From positions 1 to 10,297 of the forward strand of contig JAISBG010000078.1 of assembly GCA_031266315.1 (NCBI GenBank): a stretch of 10,297 bases of DNA. The letters run 5' to 3'. The stretch comes from Planctomycetaceae bacterium. GTDB lineage: Bacteria > Planctomycetota > Planctomycetia > Pirellulales > Thermoguttaceae. The translations under genes were made by a program, and so were the position numbers. Shown here piece by piece: positions 2,798-10,291 of this stretch (positions are counted from its first letter, which is position 1; each line of letters begins with the position of its first letter). The notes below the pieces were generated by a model that was given only the letters and a program-made list of their open reading frames with translations, searched no databases and was not told the origin of the DNA.

Positions 2798-2974
2798 GGC
2801 TGATACAACCTAACCGAAAATCCAAATACAACGAACATAAACTACTAATATAAAACACAATGTATAAAATGCAGTGTATAAAAGTGATCAATTCATTATA
2901 CCTTGATTGAGAGAGGCATGAAATAACCCAAAAGAATCCAACTGAAAAATTTTAAAAAACAGTCTGCAAAGGTA

Positions 2975-3119
2975 AGCAATCATCAGGTGGGCGCTAAAAC
3001 ATCGCGTCGGCGTTAGCCGACTGTGAACTAGATTAACTACAGCAAATTGTGTTGCCTTCCGTTTTGGAATCAATACAGCGTCAACCGGTGCGACCGCTCA
3101 GCGGGCGGATCGCCCACCT
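2975..3119 (-). repeat. Palindromic element 1, ends B (left) and A (right)
   Basis: This is one of four related intergenic elements. The left end AGCAATCATCAGGTGGGC (2975-2992) matches the B-type terminus of the copy at 10088. The hairpin GTCGGC-GTTA-GCCGAC is at 3006-3021. The right end is an A-type hairpin, 3090-3113, with stem CCGCTC/GGGCGG, loop AGC and an outer GCGA/TCGC pair, closing at GCCCACCT (3112-3119). Read on the minus strand, the element aligns along its whole length with the copy at 8265-8453, including the core (GGAATCA..., GCAACAC..., GTTAAT...). The usual ten-base B stem is reduced here to GGCGCTAAAACATCGC, so one arm appears deleted. It fills the gap between the large membrane-protein gene and queE. 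The rest of that gap (2798-2974 and 3120-3179) is AT-rich, with a short direct repeat of TGTATAAAA at about 2860-2882. Confidence 0.88.
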
Positions 3120-3179
3120 GTGTTTAACTCACTTGTTTATAACCTACTTGTGTTGATCTAATTTGTGATTACTTTCAAA

Positions 3180-6100
3180 TTACGGTTGAGTGGAGGGTTC
3201 TTTTTTTTCTTCATTTTTTTCCGGTTCGGTTTCTTCGTCGATGATTACGGAATATACTTTTGACGTTTGCGTGGAATCGTCCCAAGTTCTTGAAACAGGA
3301 ACAATCCATTTTTCTTCGTAATACACAATTCGGTAAACATAAGCGGCTCCCAGTGCCAGAAAAACACCAAAAGAGGACGCCTGAAGCATGAGCAATACCG
3401 GAGCCGGTCGGTAAAAAAGAACCGCCAACAACGCAACTCCAAGTCCAAAAAGTGATCCGGCATAACGTGTTCGCGGGAAATAAATTAGCGTCAAACCAAT
3501 AAGAAGTGAAAGACCACTCGAAAATAATACAATAAGTGATCGCCCAACAAGATAAAACGATGTTGCAGAAGCCGGATGAAGTGTACTGAACAAATATTGG
3601 TTTGATCTTGTCGAAATAGCGGAACTTTCCGGCGAATCGTCCGGCAAACCAATATCTTTTTTCTGGAGCGAAGGGATTCGTCCCCAGAACAGGTTGTTCC
3701 ACGCCCAACGGTATTCCGGTGTCCAACCAATAGGAATATCAAGAATGTGTTTGTCTTGCGGAAGAATAACCTGCCAATATTCACAACGGATAAGCGATTC
3801 CGAATTGAAATGGGGCAACTCCAGTTCCAGCAAATTGCGGGCGGTTTCAAACGGAAACCGATAAACCACCTCCACCAAAACAGAACGTTGACGTTGTTCC
3901 AACGTCAACGGAATTGTCAATTCGCTTTTCGACGAAACTTCCGCAAGAACCGGTGTCCGATCAATCGAAACAAAAACTTTGCCCTTACCGGTTGCCGACG
4001 GGAGATTGATTGTGATTGATTCGCGGTCGCTGGTAATCAGATAAACACCGCGATCTTGACGCAATGAACCGGTCAGCCATGTTTGCAGCCACGCACGTTC
4101 GATAATGGTTGTTCCCAGAGCAACATGGTTGGACAGCGAAATGAGCAGCGAAATTTTATCCGGTGTTTGCGATGATTGGAAACTTGTTCCGAGTGTTGAC
4201 GAATCCGGTGTTGTTGCGTTCCAGAGGTGATTCACATTGTCATGAAGTTCTATCAGATAACCCGGCGGAACAATCAGGTTGACGCGATGATCGGAAACCG
4301 CTGTGTCCGCCGGACGAATAAACGATAACGAAAAGGGTGTTGTCATATCGTATTCGATAGGAACCGGCGGAACCGAATACCGGAACACCAATTGAAATTT
4401 GAACAGGGATTCCGGGAGCATAACCAATTTCCGACTCCAATTTTCCTCGCCGGTTTCCGTACCGGTTAACGCAACATCGCGCAACTCCAACGGACGATTC
4501 CCGATTTTTACTTGGAGAGAACCGTTTTCTTCCAACGATTTTGGGACAAGAAAATACAATTTTTCAACCGGAACATACGAAACATCATAGGAGATAATCT
4601 GATCAACCTGATCGTTCAAATCCCGCAACCGAATATCCGTACTCATTGCCGCTGTAATCTTTTGGCGGTGATAACGAATGTCCGCAACGAAAACGGCGTC
4701 CGCCGGTTCGGTTCGGTAAAACAGCGGTTCCTGTTGCCGTTCAGGAATTTCAATCCGAATTGTTTGCGAACGCCGGCTGCGGCGTGTTAATCCGAGAGTT
4801 CGTGTTGGTGCGGAGTTGTCGGATTCCGACTCCGAAACAACCGCCAAACCGGAATCCGTGTCTTCGTCAATCGGAATCACTTCAACGTTGTCCGCCGGAA
4901 CAATTACCACCGGAGCCGGTTCGCTCCAAGTTACCAACGGTTGCGGCAATGGAACAACCAATCGTTGTTTTGCTTCGCCGTCTTCTGTTGAAAGAGGGCG
5001 GTAGGCTTTCAATTCGATTTCAAAGGAACCGTCTGTCGGTGTTCGGAAAGGAATGGTCAAAAGACCGTTTTCGTCTTGTTCGACACCGACCATATCAATA
5101 ATATTGGACGGTTTGATTTCGCCGTTCCACTTCCAACCGGGCAACCGAATCGCAAGACTTTCCGTTTTGGAACCGAGAACCTCATAAGATAATCGCGCCG
5201 TCAGTGAAAGCGAACCTTTATTGATTCCGAGTTGATATTCCGGTTTGACATTGGTTCGAGGTTGCGGGGAAACGATTCGTCCTTGCAACTGGAATGGTTG
5301 CGAGAAAAATTCAAATCGGGCATCGGCTTCTTCGTGGGTTACGGAGTCCGAAATTTCCGTTCGCCGGATACTGCGAATCGGTTTCCAGTTGGAACGCATC
5401 TCCGCAGGAACCGTCGCCGTAAGATAACCGAATTGCCGTTCCGCCCCGATCACTTCAAAACCGCCAAGATCACGCCAAACATCTTGTTTTTCCGCGTCTG
5501 ATTGTTGAATTGCCTTGAGACGAATGTTGACGGGACCGGAAGTTTTTCGGGCAAACCGGATTTCCAGAATCGGAGAGGTTGCGGTTTCTTCTTTAACCAA
5601 ATCAAACGAATATCCGCCGGCGGCTGCATATTTTTCTGTTGTTTCGTGATCCGGAACCGTTCCCGCCGGCAACCGGATTCGCAACCGGTCAAAAACAGAA
5701 GATGGAGGACTGCGTACCGGAAGAATCGCATCATAAACAGTTGATTTGTCTTCCAGTTGCACTTTAATCAGCGCGTCTTCAACATAAAGAACCGGACGAT
5801 CATCAAGCGGTTCTGTTTTTTTCTTCCGCCAAGAGAGTTCAAAATCAGGACTGAGGGCAAGTATTTTGAATTGAGTGATTGGTTTGTCGGGTATTTCGGA
5901 AGTATTGAGCAACGCTCCTTGAGAAACGGCGGCGGCGATTTCTTTTTCAGGAACCAGCAGCACAAACTGGGAACTAACCGCTTGCGGGAATGAAATGGCG
6001 AGCCGGTTTTCTTCGTTCCCGATGCGTGTCAGAGGAAACCAAAAGGGCAAAAACAATTCGTAATGCTGTTCGGAAAGAGTTTTTTCTTCTTTTGTGTCGG

Positions 6101-6767
6101 TGGAGTTGTTTTCTAAGTTTTGCGGCAGGTTTTGCGGCAACTTCTCCGGCAATACAGATATTTCCGGTTCGGCGGCTAGTTCTGCCGAAGAAGTTGCGGC
6201 GGAATTAGCCGGTTGGCTGTTGGAGGATTCGGGAGACTTGGGGCGAATCAACACAAGATATTGACCCGATTGGGGATCAACCGTCAAATCAAAAGAACCC
6301 GGTCCGCGAAGTATTGGTTTTGATGTTCCGTTGGCGGGCAGAATACCTTCTTTCATTCCAATGGGAATGAGAAGCGGGCGATTGTTGAAAGTTGTCAACA
6401 CGATTCGGATTTCGGTTTCGACATGGCGGTCAACAACTTTTCCGGTAACATTGATTTCCTGCAAACCAAATGGTGGCAACGGATTTTTTCTATCGTGCAA
6501 AAGAAAATTCCAGAAATCGTCCAAATCTTCCAAAGGCCAACCTTTGGGAAGATAGAGCAATCGTTTCCCTTCGGAGTTGAAGATTACAACCGCGTCTAGA
6601 GGGGCTTGTTCAATTGCTGGTGATGCCGGACTGATTTTAACTTGTTCCGCCGCCATCTCCCGAACAGCCGAACTCTGAGCCGCAACCCCCAAAACCCAAA
6701 ATCCAATATTAAAAAGTACAAATACCGGCAACCGTGTTCGGCGAATAAGCGAAAAAAACAATCTCAT
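3180..6767 (-). CDS. Large exported protein with three C-terminal membrane helices, function unknown
   Basis: The 1195-residue product starts with a likely Sec signal peptide: basic RR...R, then a hydrophobic stretch at about 13-28, with cleavage probably near VAA-QS at 30. Residues 31 to about 1070 form a long region rich in beta-strand-like sequence, without recognisable catalytic motifs or cysteine clusters. It includes low-complexity Ser/Asn/Glu stretches at about 178-230 and an Arg/Ser-rich patch (TLGLTRRSRRSQTIR). Three hydrophobic segments follow, at about 1074-1097, 1103-1119 and 1121-1150. The last 45 residues are a charged tail (ETEPEKNEEKKEPSTQP). With the signal peptide removed, the large domain would face the periplasm or outside and the tail the cytoplasm. 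I associate this layout with conserved planctomycete proteins of unknown role, from memory only. It appears monocistronic, with a candidate promoter at 6814-6842. The ATG at 6767 is supported by the signal peptide, and no Shine-Dalgarno is visible. Confidence 0.88.
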   Translation of the reverse strand: MRLFFSLIRRTRLPVFVLFNIGFWVLGVAAQSSAVREMAAEQVKISPASPAIEQAPLDAVVIFNSEGKRLLYLPKGWPLEDLDDFWNFLLHDRKNPLPPFGLQEINVTGKVVDRHVETEIRIVLTTFNNRPLLIPIGMKEGILPANGTSKPILRGPGSFDLTVDPQSGQYLVLIRPKSPESSNSQPANSAATSSAELAAEPEISVLPEKLPQNLPQNLENNSTDTKEEKTLSEQHYELFLPFWFPLTRIGNEENRLAISFPQAVSSQFVLLVPEKEIAAAVSQGALLNTSEIPDKPITQFKILALSPDFELSWRKKKTEPLDDRPVLYVEDALIKVQLEDKSTVYDAILPVRSPPSSVFDRLRIRLPAGTVPDHETTEKYAAAGGYSFDLVKEETATSPILEIRFARKTSGPVNIRLKAIQQSDAEKQDVWRDLGGFEVIGAERQFGYLTATVPAEMRSNWKPIRSIRRTEISDSVTHEEADARFEFFSQPFQLQGRIVSPQPRTNVKPEYQLGINKGSLSLTARLSYEVLGSKTESLAIRLPGWKWNGEIKPSNIIDMVGVEQDENGLLTIPFRTPTDGSFEIELKAYRPLSTEDGEAKQRLVVPLPQPLVTWSEPAPVVIVPADNVEVIPIDEDTDSGLAVVSESESDNSAPTRTLGLTRRSRRSQTIRIEIPERQQEPLFYRTEPADAVFVADIRYHRQKITAAMSTDIRLRDLNDQVDQIISYDVSYVPVEKLYFLVPKSLEENGSLQVKIGNRPLELRDVALTGTETGEENWSRKLVMLPESLFKFQLVFRYSVPPVPIEYDMTTPFSLSFIRPADTAVSDHRVNLIVPPGYLIELHDNVNHLWNATTPDSSTLGTSFQSSQTPDKISLLISLSNHVALGTTIIERAWLQTWLTGSLRQDRGVYLITSDRESITINLPSATGKGKVFVSIDRTPVLAEVSSKSELTIPLTLEQRQRSVLVEVVYRFPFETARNLLELELPHFNSESLIRCEYWQVILPQDKHILDIPIGWTPEYRWAWNNLFWGRIPSLQKKDIGLPDDSPESSAISTRSNQYLFSTLHPASATSFYLVGRSLIVLFSSGLSLLIGLTLIYFPRTRYAGSLFGLGVALLAVLFYRPAPVLLMLQASSFGVFLALGAAYVYRIVYYEEKWIVPVSRTWDDSTQTSKVYSVIIDEETEPEKNEEKKEPSTQP

Positions 6768-6813
6768 GGAAATATCACTGGTAAAACCGAATAAATTATA
6801 ATGAACGACGTTA

Positions 6814-6842
6814 ATTATAATAGATTTTCAATACAAAAGCAA
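6814..6842 (-). promoter_or_regulatory. Candidate sigma70-type promoter for the large exported protein
   Basis: On the minus strand, TTGCTT (6842-6837), a 17-base spacer and a perfect TATAAT (6819-6814) precede the ATG at 6767 by about 47 bases. The surroundings are AT-rich. A second TATAAT lies at 6800-6795, but no good -35 box sits at the right distance from it. The -35 match is only moderate (TTG conserved). Confidence 0.45.
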
Positions 6843-6865
6843 CGTTCCCCCAAACCTTTTGCATA

Positions 6866-7075
6866 AGCAATATTAGAACAAACTAGGTGAGGCAAACATA
6901 GGTGAGACAAAAAACGTGGGCGATCCGCCCGCTGGGCGGTCGCGCCGGTTGAGCGGTCATTGATTCCAATCGGTTTGCCCTTTTATCTGCTATTAAATCA
7001 AAAGGAAGGACAAACCCTTCTGGAGTTGAGTAAAACTCAACCGGCGCAACCGCCCAGCGGGCGGATTGCCCACCT
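6866..7075. repeat. Palindromic element 2, ends A and A, with degenerate tandem units on the left
   Basis: The arms 6916-6953 and 7036-7073 are inverted copies over 38 bases with about two differences. Each holds an A-type hairpin. At 6920-6943 the stem is GCGA-T-CCGCCC, loop GCT, GGGCGG-TCGC. At 7046-7069 the outer pair reads GCAA/TTGC instead, so the two differences compensate. To the left, AGCAATATTAG at 6866 and two imperfect TAGGTGAGGCAAACA-like units (6884-6915) resemble decayed versions of the tandem GGTGGGC units of the other copies. The core keeps only the GATTCCAAT start of the shared core and then diverges. It sits between nadC and the large exported-protein gene, both on the minus strand, and could act as a terminator for nadC transcripts. 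Confidence 0.85.
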
Positions 7076-7131
7076 CTCCTATTTAATTAATAAAACACCA
7101 CCATCACCACCCAATTCGGGATACTAGTCAA

Positions 7132-8121
7132 TTATTCCCAATCGAGACCGAAATCTAGGGCGGTTGCGGAATGAGTCAATGCGCCGACACTGATTCGTTC
7201 AACACCGGTTGTTGCGACGGCACTGACTGTTTTTAAGTTAATCCCTCCTGAGGCTTCCAACTCCACTTCAGGCGCCAATCGGTTCCGAATTTCAACCGCT
7301 TGGATCAGTTGCGGTAAGGTCATGTTGTCGAGAAGGACAATATCCGGTCTGACTGTTAAAACCTCTTGCAGTTGTTCCAATGTATCCACTTCGATTTCGA
7401 TAATCGGTACAAGAGGAATCTTTTGAGTTTTTTGATAAGAATTTTCATTTTCATTGGAATATTCGTATTCGGGAAGACGTTCAAAGTGGAAGGAATCGGC
7501 GTGAAGCCGGAAAAATTCGCGGGTTTGAACGACCGCTTCTGCCGGAGTAAATTGTCCGCCGCCGTCCCGCCCAATCGCAAGATGATTATCCTTGATCAAC
7601 ACCGCATCAAAAAGACCGGTTCGGTGATTTCGTCCGCCGCCGCAACGAACCGCGTACTTTTCCAATCGCCGCCAACCAAGTGTTGTTTTCCGTGTGTCGT
7701 AGATTTTTGCGGGAGTTCCGGCTGCGGCGTCCACATATTTTTCCGTCAATGTCGCAATTCCCGAAAGTTTACCGATCAAATTCAACACCAAACGTTCAGC
7801 AATCAACATACTTTGTAGTTGTCCGCTGATTTGACCGATTTTATCGCCGGGTACGATTGATGAACCGTCCGAAATAAACGGTTGCCAGAGGAGAGTCGGA
7901 TTGATGACATGGAGAATTGTCGCAACAGCCTGAATTCCCGCCATCACTCCGCTTTCGCGGGAACGGATAAACGCCGAACCGCATAACTGTTCCGAAACCA
8001 AAGCAAGACTCGTCAAATCGCCGGTAATACCCGTATCTTCCGCAACTGCAATTTTCATAAGTTGTTGAAGTTCCTTTTCGACTTCCGGCGACCAATTGTT
8101 CTGATGAAAATCTCTAAACAT
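7132..8121 (-). CDS. nadC: Nicotinate-nucleotide pyrophosphorylase (carboxylating)
   Basis: NadC (quinolinate phosphoribosyltransferase) converts quinolinate and PRPP to nicotinate mononucleotide, CO2 and diphosphate in de novo NAD synthesis in the cytosol. With the ATG at 8121 the protein has 329 residues. Motifs in order are AEDTGITGDLTS (27-38), AERLVLNLIGKLSGIATLT (108-126), DTRKTTLGWRRLEKYAVRCG (142-161) followed by GGRNHRTGL, LIKDNH with the active-site Lys at about 177, EIEVDTLEQL (242-251), LLDNMT (263-268), LEASGGIN (288-295) and SVGALTHS (311-318). Residues about 205-238 form an insert rich in Glu, Asn, Ser and Tyr that makes the protein 30-45 residues longer than usual. A TTG at 8163 would add 14 residues before MFRDFHQNN; I prefer the ATG, since the first conserved helix follows it. 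No Shine-Dalgarno is visible. nadA and nadB are not in the window. The gene is divergent from ybaB-recR. Confidence 0.95.
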   Translation of the reverse strand: MFRDFHQNNWSPEVEKELQQLMKIAVAEDTGITGDLTSLALVSEQLCGSAFIRSRESGVMAGIQAVATILHVINPTLLWQPFISDGSSIVPGDKIGQISGQLQSMLIAERLVLNLIGKLSGIATLTEKYVDAAAGTPAKIYDTRKTTLGWRRLEKYAVRCGGGRNHRTGLFDAVLIKDNHLAIGRDGGGQFTPAEAVVQTREFFRLHADSFHFERLPEYEYSNENENSYQKTQKIPLVPIIEIEVDTLEQLQEVLTVRPDIVLLDNMTLPQLIQAVEIRNRLAPEVELEASGGINLKTVSAVATTGVERISVGALTHSATALDFGLDWE

Positions 8122-8206
8122 TAATATTAAGGGGTTGTAAATTGAAAATGATGGGGAACGCAAGCGGATAATTTAATTTGTTTTGGTAAATAGCACGCTT
8201 GCAAAC

Positions 8207-8235
8207 TATTCACTCCTGTTACGCAGGGGCTAAAT
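8207..8235. repeat. Fragment resembling the GTTACGCA end of the 509-855 palindrome family
   Basis: The segment CACTCCTGTTACGCA (8211-8225) matches AACTCCAGTTACGCA (497-517 region) at most positions, and GTTACGCA (8218-8225) is the reverse complement of TGCGTAAC at 8523-8530. The match is short, and it is read here as a decayed element end. It is weaker than the other repeat calls. Confidence 0.35.
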
Positions 8236-8264
8236 ATTCAGTTCAAATAGGATTCTCCCGTATT

Positions 8265-8453
8265 AGGTGGGCAATCCGCCCGCTGGGCGGTTGCGCCGGT
8301 TGAGTCTGCATTGACTCCAACACGGAAAGCAACACCATTTACCGTCGTTAAACTGATTCACTGTCGGCTAACGCCGACGCGACCTTTTAGCAAAAGGTCG
8401 CCCACCTACCCAAAGTTGCCCACCTACAAAAAGTTGCCCACCAGATGATTGCC
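8265..8453 (+). repeat. Palindromic element 3, ends A (left) and B (right), with three tandem 18-bp units
   Basis: The left end AGGTGGGC at 8265 leads into an A hairpin at 8271-8294 (GCAA-T-CCGCCC, loop GCT, GGGCGG-TTGC). The core (GGAAAGCAACACC..., CGTCGTTAAACTGATTCA) matches the copies at 10088 and, inverted, at 2975. The right side has GTCGGC-TAAC-GCCGAC at 8363-8378 and then a perfect ten-base B stem, GCGACCTTTT, loop AGC, AAAAGGTCGC (8379-8401). GCCCACC occurs at 8400, 8418 and 8436, an exact 18-base period, and the element closes with GATGATTGCC, matching the AGCAATCAT terminus. It lies in the divergent nadC/ybaB gap. Confidence 0.9.
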
Positions 8454-8505
8454 GATGAAATTTTACCTATTATTTGACGATTCCGATGTTGATGTATGTT
8501 TTGCC

Positions 8506-8546
8506 GACTTTTTTACTTATGGTGCGTAACATGAGCTATTAACGAA
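8506..8546. repeat. Second copy of the right end of the 509-855 palindrome plus its flank
   Basis: Bases 8506-8546 align with 832-873: GACTTTTT, then GGTGCGTAACATGAG, then ATTAAC and GAA. Because the match runs about 15 bases past the 23-bp terminal repeat ending at 855, the true end of this family probably lies further out than the perfect repeat. A small hairpin, GCCCT-TGC-AGGGC (8553-8565), follows immediately. Confidence 0.7.
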
Positions 8547-8590
8547 TACGTTGCCCTTGCAGGGCGGAGGAAAACTTGCAATCCTACACA

Positions 8591-8837
8591 CAGTGTTTTT
8601 TTCTTCCCGACGGCGGAAACAGGAAAAAACACAGCGCTTTTTTCTTCCCGACGGTGTCGGCAAGAAAAAGACATAGCGCTTTTTTCTTCCCGACGGCGGA
8701 AACAGGAAAAAACACAGCGTTTTTTCTTCCCGACAGTGTCGGCAAGAAAAAGACATAGCACCTTTTTCTTCCCGCCAGCGGGGACAGGAAAAAACACAGT
8801 GCTTTTTTCTTCTCGTCGATTGCAGAAAAGGCGCCGT
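8591..8837. repeat. 41-bp tandem repeat array, six units of two alternating types
   Basis: Units begin at 8591, 8632, 8674, 8715, 8756 and 8797 and are 41, 42, 41, 41, 41 and about 41 bases long. All share a C/T-AG(C/T)(A/G) start, a T tract and CTTCCCG. Units 1, 3 and 5 continue with GGCGGAAACAGGAAAAAACA or a variant. Units 2 and 4 continue with GTGTCGGCAAGAAAAAGACA, giving an 82-83-base higher-order repeat. Units 2 and 4 are near-perfect hairpins (TTTTTCTTCCCGAC pairing with GTCGGCAAGAAAAA, three-base loop). Unit 6 is degenerate. CAATCCTAC flanks both sides (about 8579 and 8838). A 41-base period is not a multiple of three, so a peptide repeat is not encoded even though all minus frames stay open. 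There are no spacers, so it is not a CRISPR array. Confidence 0.92.
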
Positions 8838-8940
8838 CAATCCTACGCATCATGCCCCGATTTTCTCATATCTGTAAAAAAGTGTCAACCCAAAACAATA
8901 ATCCCGAACAAATACTTTTTTGAAGGTGTTTTTGAAGGCG

Positions 8941-8969
8941 TTGACATAATTGTTTTGTGGGGATACAAT
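8941..8969 (+). promoter_or_regulatory. Strong sigma70-type promoter for ybaB-recR
   Basis: A perfect TTGACA (8941-8946), a 17-base spacer and TACAAT (8964-8969) precede the ybaB ATG at 9033. Transcription would start near 8976, leaving a leader of about 57 bases. It is the best promoter match seen in the window and lies just downstream of the tandem array. Confidence 0.75.
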
Positions 8970-9032
8970 AGTAGGAGTGTTTGTTATTAGATTCTTTGAA
9001 AATATTTTCTACTTTGTTTCGGGAAAATAATT

Positions 9033-9383
9033 ATGTTTGGTAAAATGTTTGAACTCGGTTCACTGATGAAACAGGCTCACGAATTTGGCGGTAAAGTTCA
9101 AGAAATGAATGATAAACTGAAACAACTTCGTGTTCAAGGTTCTGCTGCCGGCGGTCTGGTGACAGTGGATGTCAATGGGCTTCAGGAAATGGTGGCTTGC
9201 CGAATTGATCCCTCTCTTTTTCAACAGAGTGATGTTGAATTGTTGGAAGAACTCATTGTTACGGCGACCAACGACGCCATCGATGAATCACGCCAACAGC
9301 AAGCCGAATCAATGAAATCGTTGACGGACGGTATGAATCTCGGTAACCTGACCGAAACTCTTGGAAAAATTATACCGCAATAG
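9033..9383 (+). CDS. ybaB: YbaB/EbfC family nucleoid-associated protein
   Basis: YbaB/EbfC proteins are small dimeric DNA-binding proteins, usually encoded just before recR. The 116-residue product fits. An N-terminal helix (SLMKQAHEFGGKVQEMNDKL, about 10-29) is followed by the conserved turn and strands (VQGSAAGGLVTVDVNGLQEM, about 34-53; then ACRIDPSLF), and by the second long helix DVELLEELIVTATNDAIDES with a glutamine-rich continuation. The C-terminus TDGMNLGNL resembles the family's usual Met/Gly/Leu ending. The ATG at 9033 is followed directly by the family start MFGKM. The upstream bases CGGGAAAATAATT give at most a weak ribosome site. recR follows after 33 bases on the same strand and is presumably cotranscribed from the 8941 promoter. 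dnaX, the common third member of this cluster, is not immediately upstream; nadC and repeats occupy that place. Confidence 0.95.
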   Translation: MFGKMFELGSLMKQAHEFGGKVQEMNDKLKQLRVQGSAAGGLVTVDVNGLQEMVACRIDPSLFQQSDVELLEELIVTATNDAIDESRQQQAESMKSLTDGMNLGNLTETLGKIIPQ

Positions 9384-9416
9384 CAAAAATTATTTCTTGT
9401 TCCTGTTTAAAGTATC

Positions 9417-10031
9417 ATGTCGGAATTGACTGAATCCGTAACACGGATGATCAAAGAATTTGAAAAATTGCCCGGACTCGGTAAAAAATCCGCCGAACGG
9501 ATTGCTTATCATTTACTCAAAGTCGAAAAAAAAGAGGCTCTTGCGTTAGCCGATGCAATCTATGCGGTGAAAGAAAATGTCCGATATTGTAAGCATTGTT
9601 TCAATTTAACCGAGCAGGAACTTTGTGAAATCTGCCGAGACCCGAAAAGAAATCAAACGATTCTCTGTGTGGTCGAACAACCGCGTGATCTGATTGCGTT
9701 GGAACAAACCGGACGATATGACGGACTTTATCATATTCTTCTTGGGCGGATTGCTCCGCTTGATAAAATCAGTCCTGACCAATTGACAATTACCGCTCTT
9801 ATAGACCGGATCAAAACAAGTTCATTTACCGAAATTGTCATGGCAACCAATCCAACAATCGAAGGCGATTCAACCGCACTTTATATTATCAAGCAATTGG
9901 AATCTATTCAGGCAAAAGTAAAACCTCGAATTACTCGATTGGCACGCGGAATTACGACCGGAAACGATTTACAATTTGCCAACAAAGAAATGCTTGCCGA
10001 TGCTCTGGCAGAACGTCAATCGTTCCGGTAA
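9417..10031 (+). CDS. recR: Recombination mediator protein RecR
   Basis: RecR works with RecO (and RecF) to load RecA on SSB-coated single-stranded DNA at gaps. The 204-residue product has the expected length and domain order. The helix-hairpin-helix is at about 12-32 (FEKLPGLGKKSAERIAYHLL). The zinc finger has C58-x2-C61 and C70-x2-C73. The Toprim domain begins at TILCVVEQPRDL (81-92) and includes GRYDGLYHILLGRIAPLDKI and then NPTIEGDSTALYI. The C-terminal Walker-B-like end has RLARGITTGNDLQFANKEML. The ATG at 9417 fits the family N-terminus, which puts the helix-hairpin-helix close to the start. The gene follows ybaB by 33 bases with no promoter of its own in view. Downstream, a palindromic repeat begins 57 bases after the stop. 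Confidence 0.97.
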   Translation: MSELTESVTRMIKEFEKLPGLGKKSAERIAYHLLKVEKKEALALADAIYAVKENVRYCKHCFNLTEQELCEICRDPKRNQTILCVVEQPRDLIALEQTGRYDGLYHILLGRIAPLDKISPDQLTITALIDRIKTSSFTEIVMATNPTIEGDSTALYIIKQLESIQAKVKPRITRLARGITTGNDLQFANKEMLADALAERQSFR

Positions 10032-10087
10032 AAATTCCTGATTCTACCGGATTAGGTATTTCCCACCGGAATCGTAAATTAAAGGTC

Positions 10088-10291
10088 AGCAATCATAAGG
10101 TGGGCAACCTTTTGCTAAAAGGTTGCGTCGGCGTTAGCCGACTTGCCCCTGTTAACGGCTGGCAATTTGATTCCAAACCGGAAAGCAATACCGTTTGCCG
10201 TCGTTAATCTGATTCACTGTCGGCTATCGCCGACGCGACCTTTCAGCGAAAGGTCGCCCACCTACAAAAGGTCGCCCACCTAATGATTGCT
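10088..10291. repeat. Palindromic element 4, ends B and B, the most symmetrical copy
   Basis: The termini AGCAATCATAAGGTGGGC (10088-10105) and its inverse at 10274-10291 match at 17 of 18 positions. Each side has the two-hairpin B module. On the left these are GCAACCTTTT-GCT-AAAAGGTTGC (10104-10126) and GTCGGC-GTTA-GCCGAC (10127-10142). On the right they are GTCGGC-TATC-GCCGAC (10219-10234) and GCGACCTTTC-AGC-GAAAGGTCGC (10235-10257). Both ten-base stems pair perfectly although they differ at three positions per arm. GCCCACCT occurs at 10256 and 10274, the same 18-base period as element 3. The core (GGAAAGCAATACCG..., CGTCGTTAATCTGATTCA) matches elements 3 and 1. It lies downstream of recR at the window end. 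Confidence 0.92.

Follow-up and report, generated by a model that had tools for sequence, protein, structure and literature searches.

The window analysed here is the whole of a stretch of 10,297 nucleotides (contig JAISBG010000078.1) from a Planctomycetaceae bacterium (assembly GCA_031266315.1, hereafter the host). It holds four members, c1 to c4, of a family of paired, inverted hairpin elements, or doublets. By anatomy, the doublet is a dimer of repetitive extragenic palindromic sequences (REPs), with a GTRG tag at each outer edge and two types of end, A and B, the latter occurring in the forms B1 and B2. We favour, with some reserve, the reading that the recent spread of these doublets in the host occurred mostly as cargo of non-autonomous mini-transposons and that their halves have been recombined. 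An earlier note on this DNA had instead proposed mobilisation by TnpA-REP enzymes, the REP-associated tyrosine transposases (RAYTs).

Anatomy of the ends

A complete end begins with AGGT(G/A)G; next comes a stem of 10 bp, closed by a three-base loop. End A reads AGGTGGGCRATCCGCCCGCTGRGCGGTYGCRCCGGTTGA, with one copy beginning ACGTGGGC, and end B reads AGGTGGGCRACCTTTYGCTRAAAGGTYGCGTCGGCG(T/A)TAGCCGAC. Read by eye, B ends contain a second hairpin of 6 bp, and A ends a bulged T and then GCCGGTTGA. The stem was studied in 53 distinct 29-mers from the host and its relatives, nearly all of them B ends, which were selected by AGGTRGGC and a downstream word, so that the tag was set to GTRG and the two outermost pairs were fixed. 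In this set 95.8% of stem cells are paired, compared with a mean of 86.2% when the 3' arms are shuffled (maximum 88.5% in 1000 shuffles), and changes on both sides, that is, compensatory ones, occur in six of the ten stem pairs. The loop is GCT in 26 of these ends, GCC in 25 and something else in two. The tag directly beside the stem-loop, a defining trait of the GTAG REP superfamily, is GTAG in 30 and GTGG in 23, the host itself having mostly GTGG.

Folding with DNA energies gave z scores of -3.75 for positions 2985-3119, -6.66 for 6914-7063 and -5.74 for 8265-8407, none of 200 shuffles being as good. The fourth element, c4, was folded as two separate ends only (z -6.02 and -6.26). An A end alone (8265-8309) folds more weakly, with a z score of -2.22 and 7 of 200 shuffles equally good. 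The description of four inverted hairpin-pair elements built from A and B modules is thus borne out, since the modules are present and the copies fold better than shuffled sequence. A tandem form recurs at L060:449, L060:1803, L076:11234 and L110:890, where one doublet breaks off at GTCGGC and another, complete doublet comes after a short A-rich linker.

Copy number and placement

The host assembly comprises 4.24 Mb in 883 contigs and is 66% complete. Exact AGGTGGGCNA ends number 964 in it (488 + 476), compared with 11 (6 + 5) for the reversed pattern. In 80 fetched contigs and the window, which have a G+C content of 36%, 28 of the 31 facing GGTGGGC neighbours are spaced 110-209 bp apart. Tail-to-tail neighbours are at least 400 bp apart in 13 of 14 cases, the remaining one being 10-19 bp, and same-strand neighbours lie closer than 250 bp in 10 of 14 and 2 of 8 cases, tandem tags among them. 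All 63 sampled elements lie outside open reading frames (ORFs) of 120 aa or more. Pairs with outermost tags, in many copies and in intergenic positions, are what characterizes the head-to-head (HH) dimers of the GTAG REP superfamily; with the GTAG or GTGG tag directly before the stem, they uphold the identification as REP doublets made in the earlier note.

T1 and T2 as probable carriers

The flanks of the doublets are themselves repeated in the host. The more frequent carrier, T1, has a 22-bp terminal repeat, CTGATTCTACCGGATTAGGTGT. With up to three mismatches, 396 T1 ends (205 + 191) are found in the whole host assembly and none with the reversed control. In 100 host contigs and the window we identified 24 full copies with paired terminal repeats, 13 in contigs taken in number order and 11 in 20 contigs picked for holding the T1 repeat; 22 measure 237-333 bp and the others 147 and 165 bp. 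Nine of the 24 are flanked by exact 8-bp target duplications (5/13 and 4/11 in the two subsamples), compared with a mean of 1.3 and a maximum of 6 in 5000 shuffled pairings. The targets are A/T-rich and close to AAAATTTT. T1 thus has two marks of a miniature inverted-repeat transposable element (MITE) of a DDE transposon: terminal inverted repeats, and target duplications that are constant in length. The T1 copy at L040 interrupts a dispersed sequence, of which five paralogous, nearly uninterrupted versions (2-4 mismatches) were found as near-empty sites; one of them, at L067, is followed within a few bases by a T1 element of its own.

We looked for T1 and T2 repeats within 170 bp of the 51 near-complete doublets in contigs C1-C79 and the window. 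Such a repeat is present on one side or both in 31 of them: T1 on both sides in 13, T1 on one side in nine, T1 and a contig end in three, T1 on one side and T2 on the other in one, T2 on both sides in four and T2 on one side in one. Reversed patterns gave 0/51, and random places away from doublets a mean of 0.65 with a maximum of 2/51. T2, which has GTTACGCACC ends, carries doublets less often than T1. Seven of ten T2 shells have no doublet, two have one and one has at least one end; doublets in T2 shells occur at L076 and L100.

Relatives of the host have the one without the other. Genomes G005 and G019 possess T1 elements of 189-217 bp that lack a tagged doublet; of four read by eye, the duplication is exact in one (L248), 7/8 in another, 6/8 in a third and absent from the last. 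The hairpin-rich genomes G004, G014 and G016 have no T1 match at up to three mismatches, and their hairpin pairs lie in other flanks. Carrier and cargo are therefore separable. Stretches that we call outer-A and outer-B often accompany the A and B ends, and in a crude count outer-A was beside 27 of 41 A ends and outer-B beside 41 of 92 B ends, the remainder being mostly unclassified.

Two T1 elements, L210:3045-3209 and L227:3370-3516, contain a doublet that has shrunk to a single hairpin, AGGTGGGCGACCTTTCGCTATTTGTTAAAAGGTCGCCTACCT. We also considered insertion at palindrome centres, for which an element's own two flanks were scored as inverted repeats against flanks of different elements. Own-flank scores were above between-element scores in G014 (33.8 vs 17.4) and JAIROD (29.0 vs 17.2), which are the same species and provided five and four elements. 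Scores in the other three of the five sets were not clearly higher (the host, G000, 33.6 vs 29.3; JAITQV 17.1 vs 15.3; JAITAZ 23.7 vs 29.6), and such insertion is not claimed.

Pairings and probable exchange of halves

All four pairings of A and B had been reported for the window. There are only three, because c1 (B-A), read on the opposite strand, has the same form as c3 (A-B); the two are 84% identical over 127 nt. In c1, an 8-nt gap has removed the 5' arm of the B-end hairpin. The B-B element, c4, like the B-B elements of the host in general, has two different halves, with the inward continuation TTGCCCCTGTT... in B1 and AGTGAATCAGATT... in B2, and its right hairpin is a compensated variant, CCTTTC-GCT-GAAAGG.

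Element c3 points to how mixed pairings could come about. Its positions 8267-8320 share 87% identity with c2, an A-A element, at its left end, and positions 8311-8426 share 88% with c4 10167-10282. The two matches overlap at 8311-8320, which reads TTGACTCCAA.

Unbiased pairing counts are those of the host in contigs C1-C79 and C697 and the window, tandem tags being counted as ends. The 44 typed facing pairs comprise 30 A/B, 12 B/B and two A/A; 45 of 133 ends, including tandem tags, are unpaired. A wider set of 162 elements was typed by half, with elements having an unrecognised half dropped, and in 31 of the 162 the B half is neither B1 nor B2. Per-species counts from this set are biased, because the half-type patterns were tuned on sequences already seen and the loci of relatives were retrieved with hairpins or elements as queries. 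With this bias, the host has 46 A-B2, 23 B1-B2 and two A-A elements and eight with one half unclear (n = 79); G014 has three A-A, seven B1-B2, eight A-B1 and two unclear (n = 20); G005 has five A-B1, one A-A and one A-B2 (n = 7); and B1-B1 accounts for 9 of 17 in G013. The label B2-B2, given to 13 of 16 elements of G004, was not used, as by eye their second half, with a GTTGCC hairpin, differs. The mosaic structure of c3 and the mixed half-units in several species support an exchange of halves by recombination, as the earlier note had proposed. Its direction we infer.

Search for a Y1 or RAYT transposase

REPs are thought to be mobilised by TnpA-REP, a domesticated Y1 enzyme, according to PMC8266576. 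We identified one Y1 gene in the host (L001 1860-2383, contig C697). Its product scores 63.4 bits with the IS200/IS605 model (cut-off 55), which it passes, and 21.6 bits with the RAYT model (cut-off 80), which it fails. No doublet hairpins of this family lie beside the gene, so the Y1 transposase flanked by the same hairpins that had been suggested as a check did not turn up. Upstream of the gene is a tandem array of palindromes (CGACCCCTTGCGGGTCG), a repeat distinct from the doublets.

Across the genus there are 26 Y1 matches in 14 of 21 genomes, with a Y1 gene in 7 of the 11 members without the hairpin pattern and in 7 of the 10 with it; in G013, where the hairpin matches number 69, there is no Y1 match. 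Five Y1 proteins were tested, of which four exceed the IS200/IS605 cut-off and one, from G014, fails both models, its best fit being RAYT at 39 bits. The RAYT model NF047646 (NCBIfam), which passes in one of 14 control genomes and may score divergent RAYT groups low, is passed at its cut-off of 80 in 0/21 genus genomes, which are incomplete metagenome-assembled genomes (MAGs). Weaker matches number ten in 6/21 genomes and reach, among doublet-bearing genomes, 55 bits in G016 and 39 bits in G014.

The 26 Y1 and 10 RAYT-model loci, which are overlapping sets, were scanned together. A tagged B-type hairpin with at least 8/10 pairs occurs in none of the 36, compared with 55 in 383 kb of host contigs in the same scan, which is blind to A ends; an A-type scan of the 36 found no tagged A end and four 11-base words with one mismatch. 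On a looser look, the bare word GGTRGGC is present in 6 of the 26 Y1 loci and a degenerate hairpin in two (L157 and L167). The Y1 Pfam search, the NCBIfam RAYT model and the hairpin scans all gave the RAYT link no support, and on present data we reject it. Because the assemblies are incomplete, the absence of a RAYT or other transposase is weak evidence for any one genome and moderate evidence across the 21. A RAYT-like gene in G016 (L336, contig C204), which at 55 bits falls short of the cut-off, has within it the palindrome GTAGGGGCGAAAAATTTTTCGCCCCTAC; similar words make up the core of two doublets, L254 and L323, from that species.

Weighing the explanations

A T1 carrier accounts for the recent spread in the host better than TnpA-REP/RAYT mobilisation does, and a MITE carrier together with recombination of the halves covers more of what was observed; our data lend no support to the RAYT mechanism. 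The earlier interpretation therefore stands in its REP anatomy and end-swapping and falls in its RAYT mobilisation, and it had missed the larger T1 mini-transposon around many doublets. That REPINs are moved in trans today by TnpA-REP, with the T1 and T2 shells as mere landing places, seems to us rather unlikely. It would suit the resemblance to group-3 REPs in tag, perfect stem and GCT loop (PMC8266576), the published REP dimers within longer palindromes (PMC3733652), the doublets without a recognised shell and the weak RAYT-like matches. It sits badly with the failure of all 21 genomes to reach the cut-off, with 36 loci free of tagged B-type hairpins, with G013 and with the nearly equal frequency of Y1 genes in genomes with and without the hairpin pattern. 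Somewhat less probable still is that there are no REPs here, only plain DDE MITEs of which the subterminal hairpins are parts. The T1 ends with 8-bp duplications around many copies, and the outer stretches that often move with A and B, agree with this, but hairpin pairs also lie in T2 shells and in the other flanks of G004, G014 and G016, and G005 and G019 have T1 without a tagged doublet.

We think it very improbable that the doublets are selected RNA structures, such as terminators or 3'-end stabilisers, and not mobile DNA. Their position outside ORFs and the covariation of their stems would fit, as would the 14 of 44 elements in convergent gaps, which make up 22 of 126 gaps longer than 80 bp. 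Hairpins of DNA bound by an enzyme would covary too, however, the window has no Rfam match, copy number varies strongly by species, and target duplications suggest mobility. Least probable of all is that the pairings are artefacts of short-read MAG assembly. Several of the 883 contigs do end inside elements, and c4 sits at the end of the window; yet A-B2 and B1-B2 recur many times in the host and A-A twice, and A-A, B1-B2 and A-B1 recur in other assemblies.

Several results count against carriage by mini-transposons and recombination of halves, the reading that we prefer. Flank matches of 7 or better, present in 11 T1 copies, are not above shuffles (mean 4.6, maximum 12), and in 13 of the 24 full copies at most six of eight flank positions match. 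A further 20 of the 51 near-complete doublets have no T1 or T2 repeat nearby. In an assembly as fragmented and incomplete as this one, joins within repeats may be wrong in individual copies. No transposase was found between T1 ends in a search of the families PF01609, PF01610 and PF00872. Two of the three host PF01609 matches are near a T1 end; they look like insertion sequence (IS) fragments and are not between two such ends. T1 is absent from 29 further PF01609 loci, which together with the three of the host make up 32 of the 100 matches across the genus; PF01610 occurs in 1 of 21 genomes, with four matches, all covered and without T1; and PF00872 occurs in 0/21.

The host PF01609 genes were considered as the T1 transposase and set aside. 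Two look like IS fragments beside or inside a repeat, and the third (L250) has only a T1-like word with five mismatches. At L346 640-2500 (G016, contig C37) a gene of 389 aa that we judge to be IS4-like lies between two inverted GGTAGG tags. As a doublet-linked transposase it is a lead only, since the place has a cluster of other doublet ends and, by eye, the IS possesses long inverted repeats of its own.

The doublets may first have been formed by a Y1 enzyme resembling TnpA-REP that has since been lost or has escaped sampling. The pairings would have arisen through recombination inside the spacer, at short shared words such as the one at the c3 switch point. T1 would now carry the doublets, T2 doing so less often, and a DDE-type transposase would act on the T1 ends, as the repeats and duplications suggest. 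It is conceivable, though we would put it a little short of an even chance, that a REP-doublet family has in this way changed its vehicle, having lost its Y1 partner to become cargo of a DDE-type MITE, while A, B1 and B2 reassort and each species amplifies its own pairing.

Distribution among relatives

A single hairpin form, with the stem CNTTCGCNGAANG, was searched for in 99 genomes, of which those without a match may hold other forms. It is present in 11: 10 of the 21 genomes of the genus, 1 of 40 other genomes of the family and 0 of 38 of the order. Reversed controls were all 0. Copy numbers differ strongly between species, G018 and G019 having a single match each. Across the named genomes, at least 78 stretches have one hairpin form, and among the matches listed all are in MAGs titled Planctomycetaceae bacterium. 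So far the doublets are known from this genus and from a second genus in its family. With the 964 exact ends of the host, these matches place the elements well beyond the window and exclude one of the two outcomes that the earlier note had named as refuting its reading, namely occurrence in this window alone.

Features of the window

The features are listed in Table 1. Of the four starts given in the earlier note, those at 2975, 6866 and 10088 include flanking sequence, the inner starts being 2985, 6914 and 10098. A scan for T2 repeats with up to two mismatches did not list the pair around c3 that is given in the table.

Table 1. Doublets and associated repeats in the 10,297-nt window
Feature	Positions	Strand	Remarks
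Outer-B stretch AAGGTAAGCAATCATC beside c1	2969..2984		Resembles stretches beside other B ends
c1, REP doublet, form A-B2	2985..3119	-	B2 end 2985-3021, A end 3081-3119; module and alignment comparison
c2, REP doublet, form A-A	6914..7075		Left tag ACGTGGGC; one of two A-A typed in sampled host elements
Probable T2 shell around c3	8218..8530		GTTACGCAGG at 8218-8227, GGTGCGTAAC at 8521-8530; by eye
T1 terminal repeat remnant (GATTCTCCCGTATTAGGTG)	8251..8269	+	Fused to c3 A end via the shared word AGGTG; 3 mismatches
c3, REP doublet, form A-B2	8265..8407	+	Mosaic that switches at TTGACTCCAA (8311-8320) from a c2-like left half to a right half resembling c4
Two extra tandem tag units (GTTGCCCACC)	8408..8442		Outside c3 B end; sequence reading and alignment
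Left flank of c4 T1 repeat, AAAAATTC	10030..10037		Fits A/T-rich 8-bp target pattern; partner flank outside window
Left T1 terminal inverted repeat (CTGATTCTACCGGATTAGGTAT)	10038..10059	+	Beside c4; right T1 end outside window
c4, REP doublet, form B1-B2	10098..10263	+	Alignment, folding of ends, half typing
One extra tandem tag unit (ACAAAAGGTCGCCCACCT)	10264..10281		Outside c4 right end; sequence reading

Downstream of the ORF at 211-477 is an inverted-repeat element of the T2 family, 347 bp long (509-855), with GTTACGCACCGT ends and no tagged doublet. The intergenic gap that holds c3 also contains tandem repeats of roughly 41 bp each (TTTTTTCTTCCCGACGG...), with inverted-repeat pairs, at 8590-8820.

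Comparison with known systems

REPINs consist of two inverted REPs at high copy, and the doublets are like them in this; unlike REPINs, they have mixed halves and MITE carriers, and the link to a RAYT was not found. Bacterial MITEs of DDE transposons, such as MITEAba12, have terminal inverted repeats, target duplications and no coding capacity. The T1 elements share all three, and differ in that their interior is a REP doublet also present in other shells and in that no parent transposon was found. A limited search of the open literature with few terms gave no match for a REP dimer inside a mini-transposon with a fixed target duplication. If our reading is true, the family, with more than 900 tagged ends in one assembly, no RAYT passing the model and much of it within duplication-flanked mini-transposons, would point to a second route of REP multiplication. 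The mixed halves would document, in a natural setting, how copies of the repeat have recombined. Earlier work narrows the significance of this: REP dimers, hybrid dimers and REPs in palindromes have already been published (PMC3733652).

PMC3733652 reports GTAG REPs in Planctomycetes, HH dimers as the privileged type in most GTAG REP families, hybrids making up about 10% of the REP dimers of Stenotrophomonas maltophilia, and dimers of Anabaena GTAG-15 and Halothiobacillus CGTC-1 that lie within longer palindromes; it sees no obvious correlation between tyrosine transposase genes and REP families. Compared with the HH dimers described there, the tag of our host is mostly GTGG and B ends have a second hairpin inside, the carriers have 8-bp target duplications, and no RAYT gene was seen beside the repeats. 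The likeness lies in GTAG beside a stem-loop, outermost tags, conserved spacers, hetero- and hybrid dimers, occurrence in Planctomycetes and the position of some dimers inside longer palindromes.

Another near system is the REPtron Sm of S. maltophilia, with a group-3 TnpA-REP (PMC8266576). The stem here has 10 bp rather than 8, a GCC loop is present in 25 of the 53 distinct ends, the A ends are bulged, and no transposase exceeds the RAYT cut-off. According to the same source, a Marinomonas enzyme still cleaves GTGG substrates. As in the repeats of the S. maltophilia group-3 enzyme, GTAG stands directly before a perfect palindrome with a three-nucleotide GCT loop.

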